DNA of 64,000 bases from Pseudorhodoplanes sinuspersici (GTDB lineage Bacteria; Pseudomonadota; Alphaproteobacteria; Rhizobiales; Xanthobacteraceae): assembly GCF_002119765.1 (NCBI RefSeq), contig NZ_CP021112.1:738501-802500 (forward strand). The letters are read 5' to 3'. The notes beneath the pieces are model-generated. The model was not told the origin of the DNA. It saw only the letters and a list, made by a program, of their open reading frames with translations, and made no database searches. Below are positions 1,213 to 8,944 of the stretch, piece after piece; positions within the stretch are counted from its first letter, which is position 1, and every line of letters starts with the position of its first letter. The position numbers were made by a program, and so were the translations under genes.

Positions 1213-1573
1213 ATGCAAGGACGCAAATTTCAGCCTCGCCCCCGAAGATAACCTGAATACCGCGTCTGCGATGGCGCGGGTTCCGGGACGGCTGGGTAAC
1301 CGCACCGGAATGCGGCTCGGTTAGGACCCCAACTTGTATCATCACTCTTTATATCTTTGCCTTGTCCTTCCGCTATCCCCGCGAGCCGCCGCCCAACGCC
1401 TGGGCAGCGCGGCGCTGAAGCGGGCCGGCGCCCCCTTCCCGGCTTTGGAAAAAAACCAATTAAAAGCAAGCACCTAGCCAAAAGGACTGACTGGCCTGCC
1501 GCTTTGGCACGCCATTTGCGGCTTTATACGGCGAGCTCTGAACAAGTTGTGGCTCAAACAAGGGGATCCGATC
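1213..1573 (+). other. Intergenic leader of the ABC transporter/cytochrome operon
   Basis: This is about 360 bp without a convincing gene. It contains a -24/-12 promoter near 1505-1519 and an A-rich, G-rich ribosome-binding stretch (aaggggat, about 1559-1567) before the ATG at 1574. A C/G-rich inverted-repeat area (about 1375-1445) could form structure, but I recognise no riboswitch class. I looked for a NifA-type upstream activator site (TGT-N10-ACA) and found no good match. Confidence 0.5.
1505..1519 (+). promoter_or_regulatory. Sigma-54 (-24/-12) promoter
   Basis: The sequence TGGCACGCCATTTGC matches the RpoN consensus TGGCAC-N5-TTGC. The invariant GG (1506-1507) and GC (1518-1519) are separated by exactly 10 bases. 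It lies about 55 bp upstream of the ATG of the binding-protein gene and on the same strand. Sigma-54 promoters need an AAA+ enhancer-binding protein, and none is encoded in this window. Confidence 0.75.
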
Positions 1574-2938
1574 ATGACGCGTTCCAAAGTCCTGCTTGCA
1601 GCAGCCTTTGCGCTGACGTTCGCGCCGCCGCTGCATGCCAAGACCATCGAAATCAACATCGGTCACCAGAGCATGTGCACCGATACCTACACCGCCGGGA
1701 TCGTGGTCAAAGAGCTGAAGCTCTTGGAAAAACACCTGCCCAAGACCGGCAAGTACAAGGACGCGAAGTTCACTGTGAGCTGGAGCGATTATTCGTCAGG
1801 TGGGCCGATCACCAACCAGATGCTCGCCAACAAGCTCAATTTCGGCGTGATGGGCGACTACCCCCTCATCGTCAACGGCGCGAAGTTTCAGGCCACCGAG
1901 AGCCTGCGAACGCTCTATGTCGCGGGCACTGGCTATAACCTGAAGGGCTCGGGCAATTCGATTGTCGTTCCCGTCAAGTCCGACATCTATTCGATCGACG
2001 ACCTCAAGGGCAAAGCGGTATCGACGCCGGTCGGGTCCGCTGCCTGGGGCATGCTGCTGAAGGCTATGCAGGATAGCAATATCCCGACCAGCGAGTATCA
2101 GCTCAAAAACCAGTCTCCGGCAGTCGGTGCGGCCAATATTGCGACCAACAAGATCGACGCACATGCCGATTTCTGTCCTTGGACGGAGATCATGGAATTC
2201 CGTGGGACCGGCCGGAAAATCTATGACGGCTCGGAGACCGGCGTCCCCTATCTGCACGGCGTTGTCGTGCGCCAGGACTTCGCCAAGGAATATCCGGAAG
2301 TCGTGACCGCTTTCATCAAGGCGATCTATGACGCGGGCAAATGGATCAAGGAAGATCCGATGCGCGCCGTCGAACTGATGGAGAAATGGACCGGCGTCGA
2401 GAAGGAAGTGCTCTATATCTACTTCTCCAAGGGCGGCCACCTGACTCTCGATCCCACCATCAAGCCGCAATGGATCGACGCGCTCAAGTTCGACCACACG
2501 GTGCTGGCCAAGGAGCAGGCGATCCCGCCGCTCGACTTCGATACCTGGATCACCGACACCTACGTCAAGGCCGCCTACAAGGACATGAAAGTGGACTACG
2601 AGGCGGAGAAGGCCGAGGTGGTCGATCCGGTCAAAGCCAATGCCGGCCTGCCGATGGAAATCTGGCATTCCCGCGAGGGCATCAAGACCTATCCGAATCT
2701 CGCCGCGTTTCTCAAGGCGGTGGCGACGTACAACGCTGAGGGCTCGAAGCTCAATTCCACCTATGTTTACGATGTCGAGACCGGCCTGAAGCTGTTCGGC
2801 AAGACTGCGTTCTACGTGAAGGCCAACGATGGCAGCTTCGCCACCTTCCTGCGCAAGCGCGAAGCCGAAGCACACGCCAAGAAGGTCGATGGCACGATCG
2901 TGACCTATGAGGAGGCGTGGGGATCATTCTCCTCATGA
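1574..2938 (+). CDS. ABC transporter substrate-binding protein with C-terminal NosL-like domain
   Basis: This is a 454-residue exported protein with a Sec signal (MTRSKVLLAAAFALTFAPPLHA) and a NrtA/TauA/SsuA-like periplasmic binding domain over about residues 23-340. Beyond the normal family length there are about 100 extra residues. Their pattern TYPNLAAFLKAV, TYVYDVETG, KTAFYVKA, FLRKREAEAHAKK and GTIVTYEEA follows the NosL family, whose founder is a Cu(I)-binding lipoprotein of nitrous oxide reductase maturation. The ATG at 1574 is preferred to 1547 because the ribosome-binding stretch and signal peptide start there. It is the first gene of the operon behind the sigma-54 promoter. The substrate is unknown; the fusion hints at a metal or metal complex, which is inference. 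Confidence 0.82.
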   Translation: MTRSKVLLAAAFALTFAPPLHAKTIEINIGHQSMCTDTYTAGIVVKELKLLEKHLPKTGKYKDAKFTVSWSDYSSGGPITNQMLANKLNFGVMGDYPLIVNGAKFQATESLRTLYVAGTGYNLKGSGNSIVVPVKSDIYSIDDLKGKAVSTPVGSAAWGMLLKAMQDSNIPTSEYQLKNQSPAVGAANIATNKIDAHADFCPWTEIMEFRGTGRKIYDGSETGVPYLHGVVVRQDFAKEYPEVVTAFIKAIYDAGKWIKEDPMRAVELMEKWTGVEKEVLYIYFSKGGHLTLDPTIKPQWIDALKFDHTVLAKEQAIPPLDFDTWITDTYVKAAYKDMKVDYEAEKAEVVDPVKANAGLPMEIWHSREGIKTYPNLAAFLKAVATYNAEGSKLNSTYVYDVETGLKLFGKTAFYVKANDGSFATFLRKREAEAHAKKVDGTIVTYEEAWGSFSS

Positions 2939-3026
2939 GCCGGCGCGATTGGGGGTCTGCTGCGAGTGCGGCAGACCCGATCACGTCCTGTCTGCAATGC
3001 GTACATCAAAACCGCCGGACTCGCTC

Positions 3027-3971
3027 ATGAAGACTTCGACTTTGGCCATCGCGCCCGATACGGACAGCAAGGATATCTCGACACAGCCGCAACCCGCGCT
3101 GACGATCCATGCGTCAGAACCGCCCGTCGTCGACCGCGGGGACCGCTCCCCAGACAATGTCCGGGGCAAATTGGTCGACGGCATCAGGCGCGTCGACTGG
3201 ACCGGTCTGTCGCGCAGTTGGTCGGTCCGCTTTCTGTCGCTCGCGCTCGGCGTCCTGCTCTGGCACCTGCTGTGCGCAACCAAATTCAAGTTCTTCATCA
3301 ATTTCGAGAATGTCCCCGCGCCTTTAGTGGTGATGGATGCATTCATCGGGCATCTGCATGATTCCAAATTCTTCATCCACATAGCAGTCAGCATGAAGCG
3401 CATCTTGATCGGCTTCGCGCTGGCCACCGGCCTTGGCATCTGCATCGGCATGCTCATGGGCCGCTCAAAGACCGCCTGCGACTTGGTGACGCCTTATATC
3501 GAAATCCTGAGGCCGATCCCGGCGGTGGCCTGGATCCCGCTTGCCATCCTGATGTGGCCGACCGAGGAATCCTCCATCATCTACATCACCTTTCTCGGCG
3601 CGCTGTTTCCGATCGTGCTGAATACGGTGCATGGCGTCGAGCAGACGCCGGAGGTGCTGGTGCGCGCGGCACAATCGCTCGGCGCCTCGCGCCTGCAGAT
3701 TTTCTGGCATGTGGTCACGCCGGCCGCATTGCCGTCGATCGCGACGGGGCTTGCCATCGGCATGGGCGTGTCGTGGTTTTCGCTGCTGGCGGGGGAAATC
3801 ATCTCCGGCCAATACGGCATCGGCTATTTCACCTGGAACGCCTATTCGCTGATCAATTACCCGGACATCGTGGTTGGCATGCTGGTGATTGGCGGCCTTG
3901 GCACGCTGTCCACCCATACCGTCCGCAAGATCACACAACCGCTCCTGTCCTGGCAGAGGAGAATGCGATGA
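3027..3971 (+). CDS. ABC transporter permease (SsuC/TauC/NrtB type)
   Basis: This is an inner-membrane permease of the BPD_transp_1 family, about 314 residues from the ATG at 3027. An in-frame ATG at 2997 is also possible; neither has a strong ribosome-binding site. Several hydrophobic helices follow a polar N-terminal tail of about 70 residues. The cytoplasmic coupling loop reads AAQSLGASRLQIFWHVVTPAALPS, seen here as AAQSLGASRLQIF then WHVVTPAALPS, which is the EAA motif that docks the ATPase. The tail is longer and more polar than usual. The stop overlaps the next start (ATGA). Confidence 0.88.
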   Translation: MKTSTLAIAPDTDSKDISTQPQPALTIHASEPPVVDRGDRSPDNVRGKLVDGIRRVDWTGLSRSWSVRFLSLALGVLLWHLLCATKFKFFINFENVPAPLVVMDAFIGHLHDSKFFIHIAVSMKRILIGFALATGLGICIGMLMGRSKTACDLVTPYIEILRPIPAVAWIPLAILMWPTEESSIIYITFLGALFPIVLNTVHGVEQTPEVLVRAAQSLGASRLQIFWHVVTPAALPSIATGLAIGMGVSWFSLLAGEIISGQYGIGYFTWNAYSLINYPDIVVGMLVIGGLGTLSTHTVRKITQPLLSWQRRMR

Positions 3972-4696
3972 GCACCATCGCTTTGCACCAGCACGCCGAC
4001 CGCGGCCTCACTTCACCAGCGGCCGGAAAAACGGCACGGCGGTGGAGCCTGATCGCAAGCTTCGCACTGGCCTTCCCGCTGATCTTCTACTGGTTCCTGC
4101 TGGCGATTCTCGTCGTCAAATACGGTCACCTGCCAAACTATGTCACGCCGCACGACTGGATCGGGAACGTGCTGCGCATCGTCAAGAGCACGGGATCGGC
4201 TGCCGACATGGTGCCGATCATTATCGACGAATGGCTAATCGAGGCCGGGCGCATCAATTACGATTACGGCCACGGCGTCGTCGAATGGAGCTTCACGATC
4301 ATTCCGCACAAATGGGGCCTCGTGGCATTGGCCGGCGCCCTGCTCGGTCTCAATGTGGCTCTTCTTCTCGAACAGCGCATTCCCGCGACACTCGCCGGAA
4401 AATGCATCCAGGCAAGCCGGTTTGGTCTACTCACGAGCCTGGGCTCATTCTGCGCAAGCGTGACCAACGCCACCGTCTTTTCGGTGGTGCATTGCGCCAC
4501 ACCGTCGTGGGTCGGCAGCCTCGCCGTTCTCGGCCTCGATTCATACAACCTGTTCGCGATCGAGCCGTTTGGTCCGACGATCAGCGTACTTGGACTTGCG
4601 GCACTCGGCATCTCCGCGCTGCTGCTCCTTCGAGATGAGCGCTCTTCCGACGCCCGGGCCCGGGCCGCAATCCCTCAGGAGGCCGTGCCATGTTGA
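3968..4696 (+). CDS. Multi-pass membrane protein of unknown function
   Basis: This is a 242-residue protein with about four to five hydrophobic segments, near residues 25-45, 105-125, 145-170 and 190-215. I do not recognise a family. It has two cysteines about 15 residues apart near a membrane segment (SFCASVTNATVF, then SVVHCATPSW), several His/Tyr/Asp residues in the first periplasm-facing loop, and a polar C-terminal tail. It sits between the permease and ATPase genes with overlaps on both sides (4 bp and 7 bp), so it is almost certainly made together with the transporter. It could be an extra membrane subunit or a redox/metal-handling partner. It lacks an EAA loop, so it is not a second normal permease. 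Confidence 0.7.
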   Translation: MSTIALHQHADRGLTSPAAGKTARRWSLIASFALAFPLIFYWFLLAILVVKYGHLPNYVTPHDWIGNVLRIVKSTGSAADMVPIIIDEWLIEAGRINYDYGHGVVEWSFTIIPHKWGLVALAGALLGLNVALLLEQRIPATLAGKCIQASRFGLLTSLGSFCASVTNATVFSVVHCATPSWVGSLAVLGLDSYNLFAIEPFGPTISVLGLAALGISALLLLRDERSSDARARAAIPQEAVPC

Positions 4697-5538
4697 ACAC
4701 CGTGACGTCCTTTGCAGCCAGAACCGAACCGCTGCGGCAGAAGAAACCGCATGCGGTCGATACCGGCCTGGTCGAGATCGATCGGGTGTCCGTCGTGTTC
4801 GGTAAGGGCCGAAACGCGCATACGGCAGTCCAGGAAACCTCGATCAGAATCGCGCCCGGCGAGTTCGTCTGCATTCTTGGACCCTCGGGCTGCGGCAAAT
4901 CCACCTTGCTGAACACCGTTGCAGGCTATGTAAAGCCAGCCGGCGGCGAGGTCCGCGTCGACGGCGATCTGGTGACCAAGCCTGGCCCCGACCGCGGCAT
5001 GGTGTTTCAGCAATATTCCCTGTTCCCGTGGAAGACAGTGAAGGAAAATGTGGCCTTCGGTCCAAAGATCGCCGGTCTTCTGTCCGAGCCGATCGCCAAC
5101 ACCTTTCTCGACATGGTCGGCCTGACCCGCTTCGCCAACCGCTATCCGGCAGAATTGTCGGGCGGCATGCAGCAGCGCGTCGGCATTGCGCGTGCGCTGG
5201 CCAATTATCCTCGCGTGCTGCTGATGGACGAGCCGTTCGGCGCGCTCGATGCTCAGACCCGGCTGATGATGCAGGAGAACCTGCTGAAAATATGGGCCGA
5301 GTTCGGCACGACGGTGCTGTTCATCACCCACGATGTCGACGAGGCAATCTTTCTCGCCGACCGCGTCCTGATCATGAGCGCAAGCCCCGGGCGCATTATT
5401 GCCGATCTTGCGGTGAACCTGCCGCGGCCGCGCCTGCCGGAAGTCACGGCGGAACCTGCTTTTGCCGAGTTGAAGCGTCAATGCATCGCGCAGATCAGGG
5501 CAGAAAGCCTCAAGGCTTTTGAGCAGCAGAACCGCTGA
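4690..5538 (+). CDS. ABC transporter ATP-binding protein (SsuB/TauB/NrtD type)
   Basis: This is a 282-residue cytoplasmic ATPase for the transporter. It shows Walker A GPSGCGKST, the Q-loop (VFQQYSLFPWKTV), the signature LSGGMQQR, Walker B VLLMDEPFGALD and the H-loop histidine (FITHDVDEA). Length and motifs are standard for the nitrate/sulfonate/taurine importer family. The N-terminal 30 residues are variable. The start overlaps the preceding membrane-protein gene by 7 bp, and the cytochrome gene follows after 5 bp. Confidence 0.93.
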   Translation: MLNTVTSFAARTEPLRQKKPHAVDTGLVEIDRVSVVFGKGRNAHTAVQETSIRIAPGEFVCILGPSGCGKSTLLNTVAGYVKPAGGEVRVDGDLVTKPGPDRGMVFQQYSLFPWKTVKENVAFGPKIAGLLSEPIANTFLDMVGLTRFANRYPAELSGGMQQRVGIARALANYPRVLLMDEPFGALDAQTRLMMQENLLKIWAEFGTTVLFITHDVDEAIFLADRVLIMSASPGRIIADLAVNLPRPRLPEVTAEPAFAELKRQCIAQIRAESLKAFEQQNR

Positions 5539-5543
5539 ACACG

Positions 5544-6194
5544 ATGAGTGGTCGCGTTCTCCAGAGGATGGCGATGACAATGGTGCTCCTTCTTGGCGGG
5601 GCAGACGCTGAGGCCGACATGATGGACACGACCGGCGTCGAGCCGTGGGAAGTGTGCGGCGGCTGTCACGGCCTCGACGGTGCCGGCAACCGCATCAAGT
5701 TCCCGCGCCTCGCCGGTCAGAAGCCGGGCTACATCGTCAAGCAGTTGAACGACTTCCGCGCCGGCAAGCGCAGGAATGACGGCGGACAGATGCAGAAGAT
5801 GATGACCGAACTCGAGGACAGTGACCTCAAGCGCATTGCCGAGTGGTTTGCCGGTCAAACGCCCGAGTGGCCAGGCCTGACGATAGAAGCCGAAGCCGAC
5901 ATGAACCGCATGCGCCGGCTCGCAACCCGCGGGGTTAACGACATTCCAGCCTGCCTGTCCTGTCACAGCGCCATCTCACCGGAAATGGTGGATCGCCCGA
6001 TCACGGCGCCGCGGATCGCGGGCCAGCACGATTTCTATATCGCCAAGCAGCTCGCTGATTTTCGCGAGGGGCGGCGTATCAATGACGCCGACGGCATGAT
6101 GCAGCGCATCGCCAAGAAGCTCTCCGATGCCGACATCGCCGGCCTTGCGATGTTCCTCTCGCAAAATCCGGATCTCCACGAGGCAGCACCGTGA
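5544..6194 (+). CDS. Diheme cytochrome c (c4-like)
   Basis: This is a 216-residue exported cytochrome with two c-type heme sites: CGGCH at residues 38-42 and CLSCH at 137-141. Each site is followed by the family's RIAGQ/RLAGQ-type loop and by a Met-containing stretch (QMQKMM and GMMQRI) that may give the axial methionine. The two halves are homologous, as in cytochrome c4. The N-terminus is a short signal peptide (MAMTMVLLLGGADAEA). Presence inside an ABC-transporter operon is unusual and suggests that electron transfer is coupled to the substrate handled here. The last codons overlap the start of the Crp/Fnr gene. Confidence 0.9.
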   Translation: MSGRVLQRMAMTMVLLLGGADAEADMMDTTGVEPWEVCGGCHGLDGAGNRIKFPRLAGQKPGYIVKQLNDFRAGKRRNDGGQMQKMMTELEDSDLKRIAEWFAGQTPEWPGLTIEAEADMNRMRRLATRGVNDIPACLSCHSAISPEMVDRPITAPRIAGQHDFYIAKQLADFREGRRINDADGMMQRIAKKLSDADIAGLAMFLSQNPDLHEAAP

Positions 6195-6958
6195 ACCGAC
6201 CGCAACCTCCGGCCGCCATGACAGCAAGGTCCATTGCCATAGTATCCAGCGAACCGGCCCTGTTCCTGGCCGAGGCGATCGGCGATCTCAATGAGGGAGC
6301 CAATTTTCTGGCGCAACTTTCATCCGAAGTCTGGGAGACGTTGCGGCGAAAGGGCACGCAGGTCACGATCAAAGCCGGCAGCAGCGTCTTCCTGCAGGGC
6401 GACCAGCACGAAGGCATCTGGCTGATCGAGGACGGCGTTGTGCGGACATTCTACGCGGCCCCCTCGGGGCGCGAGATCACCCTCGCCTACTGGACGGCCG
6501 GACACTTCGTCGGCGGCCCGGAGATATTCGGCGGCGGCCAGCATATCTGGTCCGCCGACGTGATGCAGACATGCCGACTTCTTTACCTTCCCGCAGGCGC
6601 CATCCGCTCGCTGATCCAGACCCAACCTTCCTTCGCGCTATGCCTGATCGAAGGACTCGTTGCCAAGGGCAAATGCTATTCCGCGCTGGCGCAGATGCTC
6701 GGGACGCGCTCGGTCGTCGAGCGGCTCGCGCAGTTGCTTGTGATTCTAGCCGAAAATCATGGCCGGCGCGAAGGCAACCGCCTTTTCATCGAGCGCAAGA
6801 TCACCCATGATCAGATCGCCACCATCGTAGGGGCGACCCGGCAATGGGTGACGATCACACTCGATAAGTTCCAGAAGAAGGGCATCATCACGGTCGCACG
6901 CCAATCGATCGTCATTGAACGCTACGATCTTCTGATGGCACAGGTCGGATCGGACTAA
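6191..6958 (+). CDS. Crp/Fnr-family transcriptional regulator
   Basis: This is a 255-residue regulator with an N-terminal cyclic-nucleotide-binding-type beta-barrel (about residues 40-150) and a C-terminal helix-turn-helix (HDQIATIVGATRQWVTITLDKF). It lacks the four-cysteine Fnr iron-sulfur cluster pattern at the N-terminus. The GTG at 6191 overlaps the cytochrome stop (GTGA); an ATG at 6218 is an alternative. As last gene of the operon it may control the operon or related redox genes. The ligand is unknown. Confidence 0.88.
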   Translation: MNRPQPPAAMTARSIAIVSSEPALFLAEAIGDLNEGANFLAQLSSEVWETLRRKGTQVTIKAGSSVFLQGDQHEGIWLIEDGVVRTFYAAPSGREITLAYWTAGHFVGGPEIFGGGQHIWSADVMQTCRLLYLPAGAIRSLIQTQPSFALCLIEGLVAKGKCYSALAQMLGTRSVVERLAQLLVILAENHGRREGNRLFIERKITHDQIATIVGATRQWVTITLDKFQKKGIITVARQSIVIERYDLLMAQVGSD

Positions 6959-7418
6959 TCTCTAAGAAAACGAACTTTACCATCTACAGGATTGCAGCCC
7001 TGCTTATGTCCTTTTTAGGCCGAACGCGGTCACCGGGCGTGCTTCTGTGCCGCTGGTAAGGAGAATGTTGGAAAGCAGTTCCTCTCCCTCCGCCAGTCCT
7101 ATACCCAGGCAGCTTCTGTCTTCTAAATAGCTCCCGGTCTCACCAGCTGGCTTTACGATCGATTTTTGAGAACAAGGCGACCTCGAATTGAATCGGTCAC
7201 TGTGCCTAGGGCACTGGTCGACTCCAAGGTTATCCGAGGAAATTCATCTTTCTAAAGCCCAATAAGGGCATGGCCAAAATGCCAGCAATTCAGTTGGCAA
7301 GAGAGAAAAAGCGGAACGCCCTTGACGAAAGCGCTCGCCCGTTGCCACCTTCGTGCGAGTGGCATCGCTGACAGCGAGCAGCATTTCGCGTTGATGCGAT
7401 AAGCTGTGAGGAGAGCCT
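6959..7418. other. 460-bp gap without a recognisable gene
   Basis: Both strands were read and no ORF with family features was found. Base composition is lower in GC than the neighbours, as expected for decayed or non-coding sequence. It separates the Crp/Fnr gene from gene fragments and is probably part of the same degraded region. A GAGGAG ribosome-binding site stands at its right end (7409-7414), before the glycosyltransferase remnant. Confidence 0.45.
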
Positions 7419-7780
7419 ATGTCGGTAGAACTTACTACCGCTCCCTCGACATTCAGCCTCACCGCTGTCGAGGACTATGGATGTTTTATTAGCGATGAAG
7501 CGGTAGACCGAATCATCAAGAAGGCCAAGCGTCCTGGCGATCTTCACATTGTCCATATCAACTCGACATATTAGTCCATATCAACTCGACATATTACCGC
7601 GGCGGCGTCGCTGAACTTCTCTCCTCCTTGACGCTGTTGACGAATGCTGCGGGCATTCGGACCGGATGGCGGGTCATTCAGGCGCGCCCCGACTTCTTCA
7701 GTATCACCAAGAAGATGCACAACGCGCTGCAGGGAGGAGACATCAATCTTACAGATCTGAAGATGCATATCTACGAGTAA
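7419..7780 (+). pseudogene. N-terminal remnant of a trehalose-synthase-like glycosyltransferase (TreT type), frameshifted
   Basis: The ATG at 7419 has a GAGGAG site. The first 51 codons read in frame to a premature TAG at 7572, and the correct frame resumes from about 7577. Joined, the fragment contains HINSTYYRGGVAELLSS, GWRVIQARPDFFSITKK and MHNALQGGDINLTDLK. These are hallmarks of the N-terminal domain of GT4 trehalose-synthase-type enzymes. The break is an exact 23-bp tandem duplication. After HIYE a stop (7778-7780) and unrelated sequence follow, so more than two thirds of the gene is gone. Confidence 0.75.
7551..7596 (+). repeat. Exact 23-bp tandem duplication inside the pseudogene
   Basis: Bases 7551-7573 are repeated without change at 7574-7596, beginning GTCCATATCAACTCG. 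The extra 23 bases shift the frame and create TAG at the junction. Removing one copy restores a continuous reading frame across this site. Perfect identity suggests a young slippage event, or an assembly artefact. Confidence 0.9.
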
Positions 7781-7902
7781 TCGTAACGCCACACAGCGCC
7801 TTCAACACACGTGAGGCCGTTCAGCGCATCATCCATACGACCGTTACAAATATCGAGACATTTTTGTCCGGTAATCCGCGCAACGTTGTGATCGGTCAAT
7901 GA
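7780..7902 (+). pseudogene. C-terminal fragment of a D-isomer 2-hydroxyacid dehydrogenase
   Basis: The last 40 codons before the stop at 7902 read IVTPHSAFNTREAVQRI, then IHTTVTNIETFLSGNPRNVV. This is the C-terminal end of D-lactate dehydrogenase-type enzymes, including the catalytic-histidine segment TPHSAFNT. Everything upstream is missing: the sequence switches from the glycosyltransferase fragment at about 7778-7783. The junction therefore looks like a deletion that joined two neighbouring genes. Confidence 0.7.
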
Positions 7903-7984
7903 CTGAAATTTACCTTCCTCTGATCGACTTATATCGCAGAGACGGAGCCAGGTTCCGCGGCGTTTTCGAGCGAAAGACAAATCG

Positions 7985-8944
7985 ATGAACGGGCCGAAGC
8001 TTGGTCTCGTCGGGGATGTCGGCGCCACAAACGCGCGATTCGCTCTTGTTGCGCCGGACGGGAGCATCACAGCCCCAAGAGTCTACGCCTTGGATGACTA
8101 TCCATCCATCGCCGACGCGATCGAGACATACCTGACGGAGGAATTACCAGCCAGACGACCGATGCTGGCCGTACTCGCGGTCGCCTCGCCGATAACGGGC
8201 GATCAGGTCACGCTGACGAACCACAACTGGACGTTTTCAATCGAGGGGCTTCGCAGGCGCTTTAGGTTGGAGCGGCTTCGCGTGATCAACGATTTCGCCG
8301 CCAACGCTCTCGCCATTCCCCACCTCCGCGAAGGTGATCGTACGCAGATCGGCTCCGGAGCGCCCATCGCCGACGCCCCCATCGGCGTGATCGGGCCGGG
8401 CACAGGACTTGGCGTAAGCGCGCTGGTTCCAATGGACGACGGTTCAATGCCCATTCAAGGCGAAGGCGGACACGTCACCATGGCGCCTGTCGACGAGCGT
8501 GAAGGCGCTGTGCTCGATCTCATGCGACGGCGCTACGACCACGTCTCCGCCGAGCGAATCCTGTCCGGGCCCGGCCTTGTCAACCTGTACAATGCCCTCT
8601 GTGAGTTGTCGGGGGTGCCCGCAGCGCCGTTTACTGCGCCTCAGATCACTAGCGCGCAGGTCGGCGTGGAAGATCCCCGTGCGCGGGAAGCTATGGCCAT
8701 GTTCTGTGCCATGCTCGGGACCATCGCCGGCAATCTCGCGCTGACATTTGGCGCTCGCGGCGGCATCTACATTGCCGGCGGAATCGTTCCGAGGTTGGGC
8801 GCTGCTTTCGCGAAATCGGCATTCCGTACACGGTTCGAGGCTAAAGGACGATTCACCAGCTACCTCGCTGCGATCCCGACTTATGTCATAACCCGTCCGC
8901 TACCGGCTCTTCTTGGCGCAGCAAAACTGCTCAAACGTCCCTAA
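7985..8944 (+). CDS. glk: Glucokinase
   Basis: This is a 319-residue ATP-dependent hexose kinase that makes glucose 6-phosphate. The N-terminal phosphate loop reads LVGDVGATNARFAL, with the family sugar-binding and catalytic stretch INDFAANALAIP, the GPGTGLGVS phosphate 2 motif and EGGHVTMAP. Length matches the bacterial Glk family (about 320). It lies just after two gene remnants, and the convergent PfkB-type gene follows 40 bp away. The ribosome-binding site is weak. Confidence 0.92.
   Translation: MNGPKLGLVGDVGATNARFALVAPDGSITAPRVYALDDYPSIADAIETYLTEELPARRPMLAVLAVASPITGDQVTLTNHNWTFSIEGLRRRFRLERLRVINDFAANALAIPHLREGDRTQIGSGAPIADAPIGVIGPGTGLGVSALVPMDDGSMPIQGEGGHVTMAPVDEREGAVLDLMRRRYDHVSAERILSGPGLVNLYNALCELSGVPAAPFTAPQITSAQVGVEDPRAREAMAMFCAMLGTIAGNLALTFGARGGIYIAGGIVPRLGAAFAKSAFRTRFEAKGRFTSYLAAIPTYVITRPLPALLGAAKLLKRP

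Follow-up and report, generated by a model that had tools for sequence, protein, structure and literature searches.

The window analysed here, a 64-kb stretch (64,000 nucleotides) of the Pseudorhodoplanes sinuspersici genome, carries a compact operon for an ABC importer, a membrane protein, a diheme cytochrome c and a Crp/Fnr-family regulator. Our analysis revealed that this operon is the import half of a larger conserved cluster whose enzyme core lies outside the window. The cluster is widely conserved and joins an enzyme resembling adenosine 5'-phosphosulfate (APS) reductase to either of two interchangeable importers; no description of it was found in the open-access literature that we searched. 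A preliminary description of the window had read the importer, cytochrome c and regulator as one uptake system; all of these components are indeed present, but they constitute the import half only. The core left of the window decides the likely function. There the same genome contains genes for a PF03601 exporter-type protein, a thioredoxin-reductase-like flavoprotein, FdxA, a DUF971 protein (GBBH-like N), an AprA-like flavoprotein, an AprB-like two-cluster ferredoxin and a HEAT protein. In place of the thioredoxin-reductase-like gene, most relatives carry an FNR from a different family (PF00970/PF00175 in the single case tested), and the FNR profile had no match in the corresponding stretch of P. 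sinuspersici. We tentatively regard the whole as a two-module system for acquiring a sulfur compound, with substrate and reaction direction inferred; we give this reading somewhat less than an even chance.

To describe the cluster, we used the best 80 of 90 loci from a profile search with the substrate-binding protein (SBP), which together with the window's own gave 81 loci for family counts. They span Roseobacter kin, Stappia/Roseibium, Filomicrobium, Nitrobacter, Rhodospirillaceae, Microbulbifer, Granulosicoccaceae, Betaproteobacteria and others. The SBP patterns that fetched the 80 loci include the HQSMC motif, so that the M-type class defined below is in part a product of this selection, in which the accessory genes played no part. 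The most frequent families are the SBP (81), permease (81), ATPase (78), membrane protein (77), HEAT (72), AprB-like (71), cytochrome c (71), AprA-like (70), SCO1 (70) and DUF971 (65) proteins, followed by Crp (55), PCuAC (54), FdxA (54), FNR (47), GntR (40), PF03601 (29), TlpA (20) and DsbA (15). Two arrangements dominate. The first, mostly alphaproteobacterial, reads FNR', FdxA', DUF971, AprA-like, AprB-like, HEAT, (GntR, TlpA), SBP, permease, membrane protein, ATPase, SCO1, PCuAC, cytochrome c, Crp. The second, mostly gammaproteobacterial, reads SBP, permease, membrane protein, ATPase, SCO1, (PCuAC), cytochrome c, GntR, AprA-like, AprB-like, HEAT, FdxA, DUF971, PF03601. The order SBP-permease-membrane protein-ATPase-(SCO1-PCuAC)-cytochrome c thus recurs in alpha-, beta- and gammaproteobacteria, which disposes of the possibility, allowed for in the preliminary description, that it is peculiar to this genome. 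The same description had proposed a redox- or metal-linked uptake system matching none described. This was supported, with the qualification that 'metal' must be weighed against a thiol-redox reading.

Relatives of the membrane protein were detected in 6 of 149 genomes in the family sample and 6 of 297 in the order sample (in each case P. sinuspersici and five others, one of them weak) and in 1 of 349 in the phylum sample, namely P. sinuspersici itself. None was found in the six other genomes of the genus listed, in the plasmids scanned, or by a scan of genome contigs with the single protein as query. Versions of the core were also seen elsewhere. In three cyanobacterial loci (L173, L026 and L172), an Mrp/NBP35 ATPase gene follows the HEAT gene and DUF971 is not annotated, which hints at a role in Fe-S assembly for both. 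In an actinobacterial locus (L174:8974-11655), a single long gene (2,682 bases) begins with the AprA-like enzyme, to which the HEAT part is probably fused.

The import heads fall into two classes. M-type SBPs were defined by His31, Met34, Cys35 and Cys201, which are therefore invariant by definition; S33, D37, Y39, W158 and W203 are also invariant in the 83 sequences. In the 24 T-type SBPs, T31, D33, N37, H158, V201 and F203 are invariant, with T34 in 22 and T35 in 23. The classes differ sharply in their companions when counted by locus (82 M-type versus 24 T-type): the membrane protein occurs in 79 versus 0, SCO1 in 70 versus 0, PCuAC in 54 versus 0, cytochrome c in 72 versus 0, TlpA in 19 versus 0 and DsbA in 15 versus 0. 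The three M-type loci that lack the membrane protein are L080 (a 5 kb contig), L090 and L104. Genes of the core and regulators, on the other hand, accompany both classes: AprA-like, 71 versus 24 (the T-type loci were mostly found through AprA-like family searches, so that their 24 of 24 is set by selection); HEAT, 73 versus 24; FdxA, 53 versus 3; FNR, 47 versus 7; GntR-type, 39 versus 13; and Crp, 56 versus 11. These counts omit loci without a classed SBP (L029, L154, L170, L172, L178 and L180), L169 and the actinobacterial L174, whose SBP belongs to neither class (YKTV). The SBP of L169 (L169:5193-6566) has mixed class residues (HTVC) and is possibly an intermediate between the two classes; the membrane protein is absent from this locus.

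Phylogenetic analyses showed that the heads have been exchanged around one unaltered enzyme. Trees were built for up to 46 loci (24 M-type and 22 of the 24 T-type, the near-copies L156 and L160 being dropped; 45 rows for HEAT, 39 for DUF971 and 26 for Crp). The M-type SBPs, permeases and ATPases each lie on one side of a single branch with support of 99-100, and the SBP branch persists after removal of 17 class positions. Mixing of the classes was already visible in a FastTree tree before the AU tests. The AprA-like tree requires six M/T changes, of which only four are forced by well-supported branches, and an M clade is rejected (p-AU 2e-74). In this tree, Nitrobacter M-type sequences are nested within a Rhizobium/Bradyrhizobium-like T-type group, and a T-type group from the family of P. 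sinuspersici adjoins Filomicrobium M-type sequences. The trees of HEAT (6 changes, p-AU 1e-52), DUF971 (5 changes, 5e-6) and Crp (3 changes, 0.0026) agree, and the AprB alignment was too short to decide (9 changes, p-AU 0.116). No position among 582 of the AprA-like protein separates M from T (69 M and 24 T rows), compared with 34 of 454 in the SBP, where the separation rule is slightly stricter and some separation is built in since the classes were defined on this protein. The heads were exchanged without the enzyme changing in step, which argues that both serve one kind of chemistry.

The window SBP (1574-2938; all window features given here lie on the forward strand) is an M-type protein of the NMT1/SsuA-type binding protein family by Pfam and NCBIfam. 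Its structure model (pLDDT 89.5) matched TauA and SsuA best in Foldseek (E about 1e-20), with nitrate, bicarbonate and thiamine-precursor binders also among the matches, and its scores against the curated SsuA and TauA models are below the cut-offs (124.3 versus 163.5 and 77.3 versus 304.25 bits, respectively). A sulfonate is a candidate ligand. The codons of H31-Q-S-M34-C35, the class-defining loop, occupy 1664-1678, and those of C201 and W203 occupy 2174-2176 and 2180-2182. Residues 31-37 follow strand 1 and residues 201-203 belong to the second domain; judged by the usual architecture of binding proteins, the class residues may line the cleft and form the binding site.

The SBP ends in a NosL-like domain (2648-2935). 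Comparison by hhalign gave 91% probability in local and 73% in global mode (E 1e-6), whereas three control pairs gave at most 0.2% locally. The Pfam NosL model (PF05573) did not match the window SBP, and it matched the SBP of a related cluster with 38 bits (cut-off 24). The SBP domains aligned lack the Cys-x-Met and Gly/Pro-Met-Gly motifs that the NosL rows show, and NosL proper was therefore rejected as the identity of the domain. The NosL part of what the preliminary description called binding protein-NosL is a remote NosL relative seen by profile-profile comparison.

One rival explanation is that the M-type head imports copper, with Cu(I) or a different soft metal ion as the transported species, and moves together with the core. 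H31, M34, C35 and C201 could serve as soft-metal ligands, and SCO1, PCuAC, DsbA (in the one tested, with an ScsC-type N-terminal domain) and the CC-motif membrane protein accompany the M-type only. However, the same AprA-like core, with no class-separating position, pairs with T-type heads devoid of such residues, the SBP has the fold of sulfonate and taurine binders, and its NosL-like domain lacks the NosL Cys/Met motifs. Copper cargo is thus quite unlikely, and we rejected pure copper import on the grounds that the core is identical in kind with T-type heads. Another explanation is that Cys35 and Cys201 form a redox-switchable pair, so that uptake of the same cargo as in the T-type would follow the periplasmic redox state. 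TlpA or DsbA, SCO1, the CC-motif membrane protein and the diheme cytochrome c could oxidise or reduce such a pair, and thiol gating accounts both for the unchanged enzyme and for the confinement of thioredoxin-fold proteins and cytochrome c to M-type loci. We nevertheless consider it unlikely, as the proximity of C35 and C201 is putative, His31 and Met34 are left unexplained, and the window copy of the membrane protein retains only one Cys of the CC motif.

That membrane protein (3968-4696; 242 amino acids) matched no Pfam or NCBIfam family above the cut-off, and Foldseek found no solved fold at E <= 0.001 for its model (pLDDT 86.9). The relatives share a CC-x-x-P-x-W motif: CC is present in 71 of 80 sequences, SC in one, and the motif is unmatched in seven; the window copy has HC. 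MerT was considered as its family and rejected, because the PF02411 score is below the cut-off (12.1 versus 32.9 bits; weak matches in 4 of 29 members, the best with E 0.013) and the profile match is weak (16% in local hhalign), with only the CC-P pattern being alike. In the cytochrome c (5544-6194; Pfam Cytochrom_C in two stretches), two CxxCH motifs are found in 72 of 73 rows, including the window's own.

The AprA-like protein of the core is a full member of the PRK08275/NF006131 family (1059.8 bits; cut-off 587), which is above the cut-off in 18 of the 349 phylum-sample genomes, P. sinuspersici included. No tested function of this family was found, an open-access literature search by model name gave no paper, and Table 1 of a Rhodococcus sulfur-starvation proteome has no protein with a similar name (PMC8557817). 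Its nearest solved relatives are the alpha subunit of the 3'-phosphoadenosine 5'-phosphosulfate (PAPS) reductase of Methanothermococcus thermolithotrophicus (8a8o) and Archaeoglobus AprA. With the AprB-like protein (Fer4 domains in two stretches), it makes up a FAD alpha plus two-[4Fe-4S] beta pair as in AprAB. Compared with Archaeoglobus AprA, Trp234 is replaced by Tyr and Arg265 by Leu in all 69 M-type and 24 T-type rows, and Glu141 falls at a variable place. We assume that these three residues form the APS/sulfite site of AprA; the chain numbering of the alignment agrees. Across the 93 rows, stretches such as TYEN, INPL(I)KDYNGP and GHSAS hardly vary, and the His of SGHS is kept. A genuine APS reductase was rejected because the site residues are not kept and the score with the AprA model TIGR02061 is under the cut-off (149.3 versus 641.75 bits). 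By these tests, the enzyme is a relative of APS reductase that is probably linked to ferredoxin.

A variant of the sulfite-oxidising APS pathway, in which sulfonate uptake is followed by release of sulfite elsewhere and by APS formation through the AprA/B-like pair, would fit the presence of this pair and of sulfate and sulfite exporter genes nearby. AprAB is reported to act after taurine desulfonation in other bacteria (PMC10356861). We consider this variant very improbable, since the APS-site residues are not retained, whereas the true PAPS reductase of the methanogen keeps Trp and Arg in its alpha subunit, the score is far under the AprA cut-off, and the adjoining reductase and FdxA genes suggest reduction. 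Import and reduction of a non-sulfur substrate, such as an organic acid or an N-oxide, in the style of the fumarate reductase superfamily is also rather improbable. The enzyme belongs to that superfamily and conserves the SGHS histidine, and binders of nitrate, bicarbonate and thiamine precursors are among the Foldseek matches of the SBP; against this, the nearest solved enzymes are sulfur enzymes, and exporter and sulfonate transport genes lie nearby.

The sulfur reading is based on the kinship of the SBP and the enzyme, on the PF03601 genes and on annotated neighbours. Beside T-type or unclassed clusters, we found aliphatic sulfonate importers (Methylobacterium and Nostoc), TauE/SafE with a putative sulfate exporter (Leptolyngbya), TauE/SafE (Aquabacterium), TSUP (Acinetobacter), sulfate and sulfonate importers with TauD (Sinorhizobium americanum), and DmoA/NtaA with an SsuA-family SBP (Cupriavidus). 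Sulfur-type names occur in 6 of 16 annotated cluster regions (7 with Cupriavidus); the 16 include L027, where nothing but a fragment of the SBP is present. In 12 plasmid records, such names were found in 5 of 12 cluster regions (6 with Cupriavidus) and in 1 of 12 offset regions elsewhere in the same records (2 if phosphosulfolactate synthase is counted), a suggestive enrichment. Both TauZ and the name 'putative sulfate exporter' presumably belong to PF03601. TauZ is reported to export sulfate and TauE sulfite (PMC5320631). Separately, an SsuA-like SBP gene and a gene labelled by eye as an SsuD-like flavin monooxygenase stand beside two Nitrobacter-like clusters (L014:17121-19001 and L015:15109-18000), and an Acinetobacter baumannii record (L171) contains a complete T-type cluster with ChrA and a TSUP transporter upstream.

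In the mechanism that we propose, electrons would pass from a pyridine-nucleotide reductase (FNR in most loci, the thioredoxin-reductase-like protein here) through FdxA and the AprB-like protein to the AprA-like FAD enzyme, with the HEAT and DUF971 proteins probably acting in assembly or support. The import head (SBP, permease and ATPase) would take up a small substrate, which the enzyme would then reduce in the cytoplasm with these ferredoxin electrons, and surplus sulfite or sulfate could leave by the exporters often encoded nearby. The M-type head would bind its ligand through the His/Met/Cys/Cys site, and the periplasmic group (TlpA or DsbA, SCO1, PCuAC, the CC-motif membrane protein and the diheme cytochrome c) would load or re-reduce that site. 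The fully specified form of this proposal is doubtful: a single fixed AprA/B-like ferredoxin-driven reductase with a non-APS site and exchangeable heads, of which the M-type takes a sulfur ligand at a His/Met/Cys/Cys site of the Cu(I) or thiolate type, while a relay of periplasmic copper, thiol and cytochrome c proteins dedicated to this task, with a new membrane protein family among them, keeps the site in order.

Several observations weigh against the two-module sulfur reading. The window copy lacks SCO1 and PCuAC, the copper chaperones usual in the cluster, and HC replaces CC in its membrane protein. The conserved cluster includes no C-S cleaving enzyme, and the altered residues of the AprA-like protein give no guarantee that a sulfur compound reacts at the flavin. 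The sulfur link draws on neighbourhood and fold only; the enrichment in sulfur names is not a proof, and the PF03601 exporter-type genes (28 of 82 M-type and 4 of 24 T-type loci) were counted without a background rate.

The window operon itself agrees with its preliminary description as six tightly packed genes at 1505-6958. Besides the genes described above, it contains an ABC permease of the binding-protein-dependent type (2907-3971), an ABC ATPase (4690-5538), both identified by Pfam and falling in the M-type clades, and the Crp/Fnr-family regulator (6191-6958; Pfam). The start of the permease is uncertain, in-frame ATGs 90 and 120 bp inside its open reading frame being likelier. From the permease to the regulator, the junctions consist of overlaps of 4, 7 and 4 bp and a single 5-bp gap. 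The TlpA-like thioredoxin and GntR regulator noted upstream were also confirmed by Pfam: a TlpA/ResA-like periplasmic thioredoxin with a CPPC motif (697-1212) and a GntR/UTRA regulator (2-700; UTRA 102 bits, GntR 58 bits), whose frame is open at the window edge. On the 3' side of the operon, a short interrupted frame at 7419-7780, which we take to resemble the N-terminus of a trehalose-synthase-type glycosyltransferase, coincides with a drop in GC content to 0.52 in 7001-8000. About 13 kb left of the window, the same genome has a pair of genes resembling by eye those for an acyl-homoserine-lactone synthase and a LuxR-type regulator (L021:2535-3978). No tRNA was found near the locus in L021 or L001.

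Upstream of the SBP gene lies a sigma-54-type -24/-12 element, TGGCACGCCATTTGCG (1505-1520), a predicted sigma-54 promoter from which transcription may depend on RpoN. TGGCAC-N5-TTGC (1505-1519) is the sole exact match in the 64 kb; with one mismatch, 5 matches were seen in the window and 5.75 expected, and as this is chance level, the support for the element is positional. With up to one mismatch, TGGCACN5TTGCW was found in 28 of the 81 regions upstream of homologous SBP genes, the window's included, and in about 1 of 81 after block shuffling of these regions. The -24/-12 promoter reported earlier is hence present as an exact consensus site, and among the relatives such sites, within one mismatch, are limited to 28 of 81 loci. 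We noted no enhancer-binding protein in the conserved families. Further upstream, AACTTGTATCA (1331-1341) is a putative GntR operator. It fits the element ACTTGTATTA, which in 19 of 81 scanned loci precedes the SBP match at a distance of 211-375 bp; 18 of these 19 have a GntR gene (the exception, L100, is a short contig without one). It is the only match to ACTTGTATTA within one mismatch in the window (0.32 expected), and the word was also found beside other genes in a few clusters. A search for FNR boxes upstream of the SBP gene (15 of 81 within one mismatch, about 5 of 81 when shuffled) led nowhere.

These results place a flavoprotein family with only a generic name in a conserved proteobacterial cluster with a dedicated importer; similar genes adjoin it in cyanobacteria and actinobacteria. 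The contrast between M-type and T-type loci is a natural experiment, with one enzyme, two SBP classes and two lists of periplasmic parts, and makes the substrate and the role of the membrane protein directly testable. If true, our proposal would mean a further, reductive way of acquiring sulfur and provide the first case known to us of copper/thiol periplasmic equipment serving a sulfonate-class ABC uptake head.

Among known systems, NosL/NosDFY, which we take to serve copper assembly of N2O reductase, resembles the cluster in the remote NosL homology and in having copper chaperones near an ABC transporter. It differs in that the present system is an importer with a soluble binding protein, lacks the NosL Cys/Met motifs and includes no Nos gene noted among its conserved families. 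TauABC and SsuABC share the SBP fold and the permease and ATPase families, whereas the cluster adds the NosL-like domain, the M-type class residues and periplasmic redox genes, and TauD and SsuD are not among its conserved genes. The best-scoring curated models for the ATPase and permease are SaoA and SaoP of the SAO transporters, which a figure legend names 'selenocysteine-assisted organometal' ABC transporters (PMC10418091). Membership was rejected because the SaoA, SaoP and SaoX scores are all below the cut-offs (256 versus 360, 151.5 versus 295 and 38 versus 300 bits, respectively). By its flavoprotein, the cluster belongs fully to PRK08275/NF006131, 'fumarate reductase/succinate dehydrogenase flavoprotein'. 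Like AprAB and 8a8o, it has a FAD subunit that is alike over most of its length and an adjoining gene for a small two-cluster ferredoxin; unlike AprAB, it has changed Trp234, Arg265 and Glu141, and the partners of the pair are a HEAT protein, a DUF971 protein and an ABC importer.

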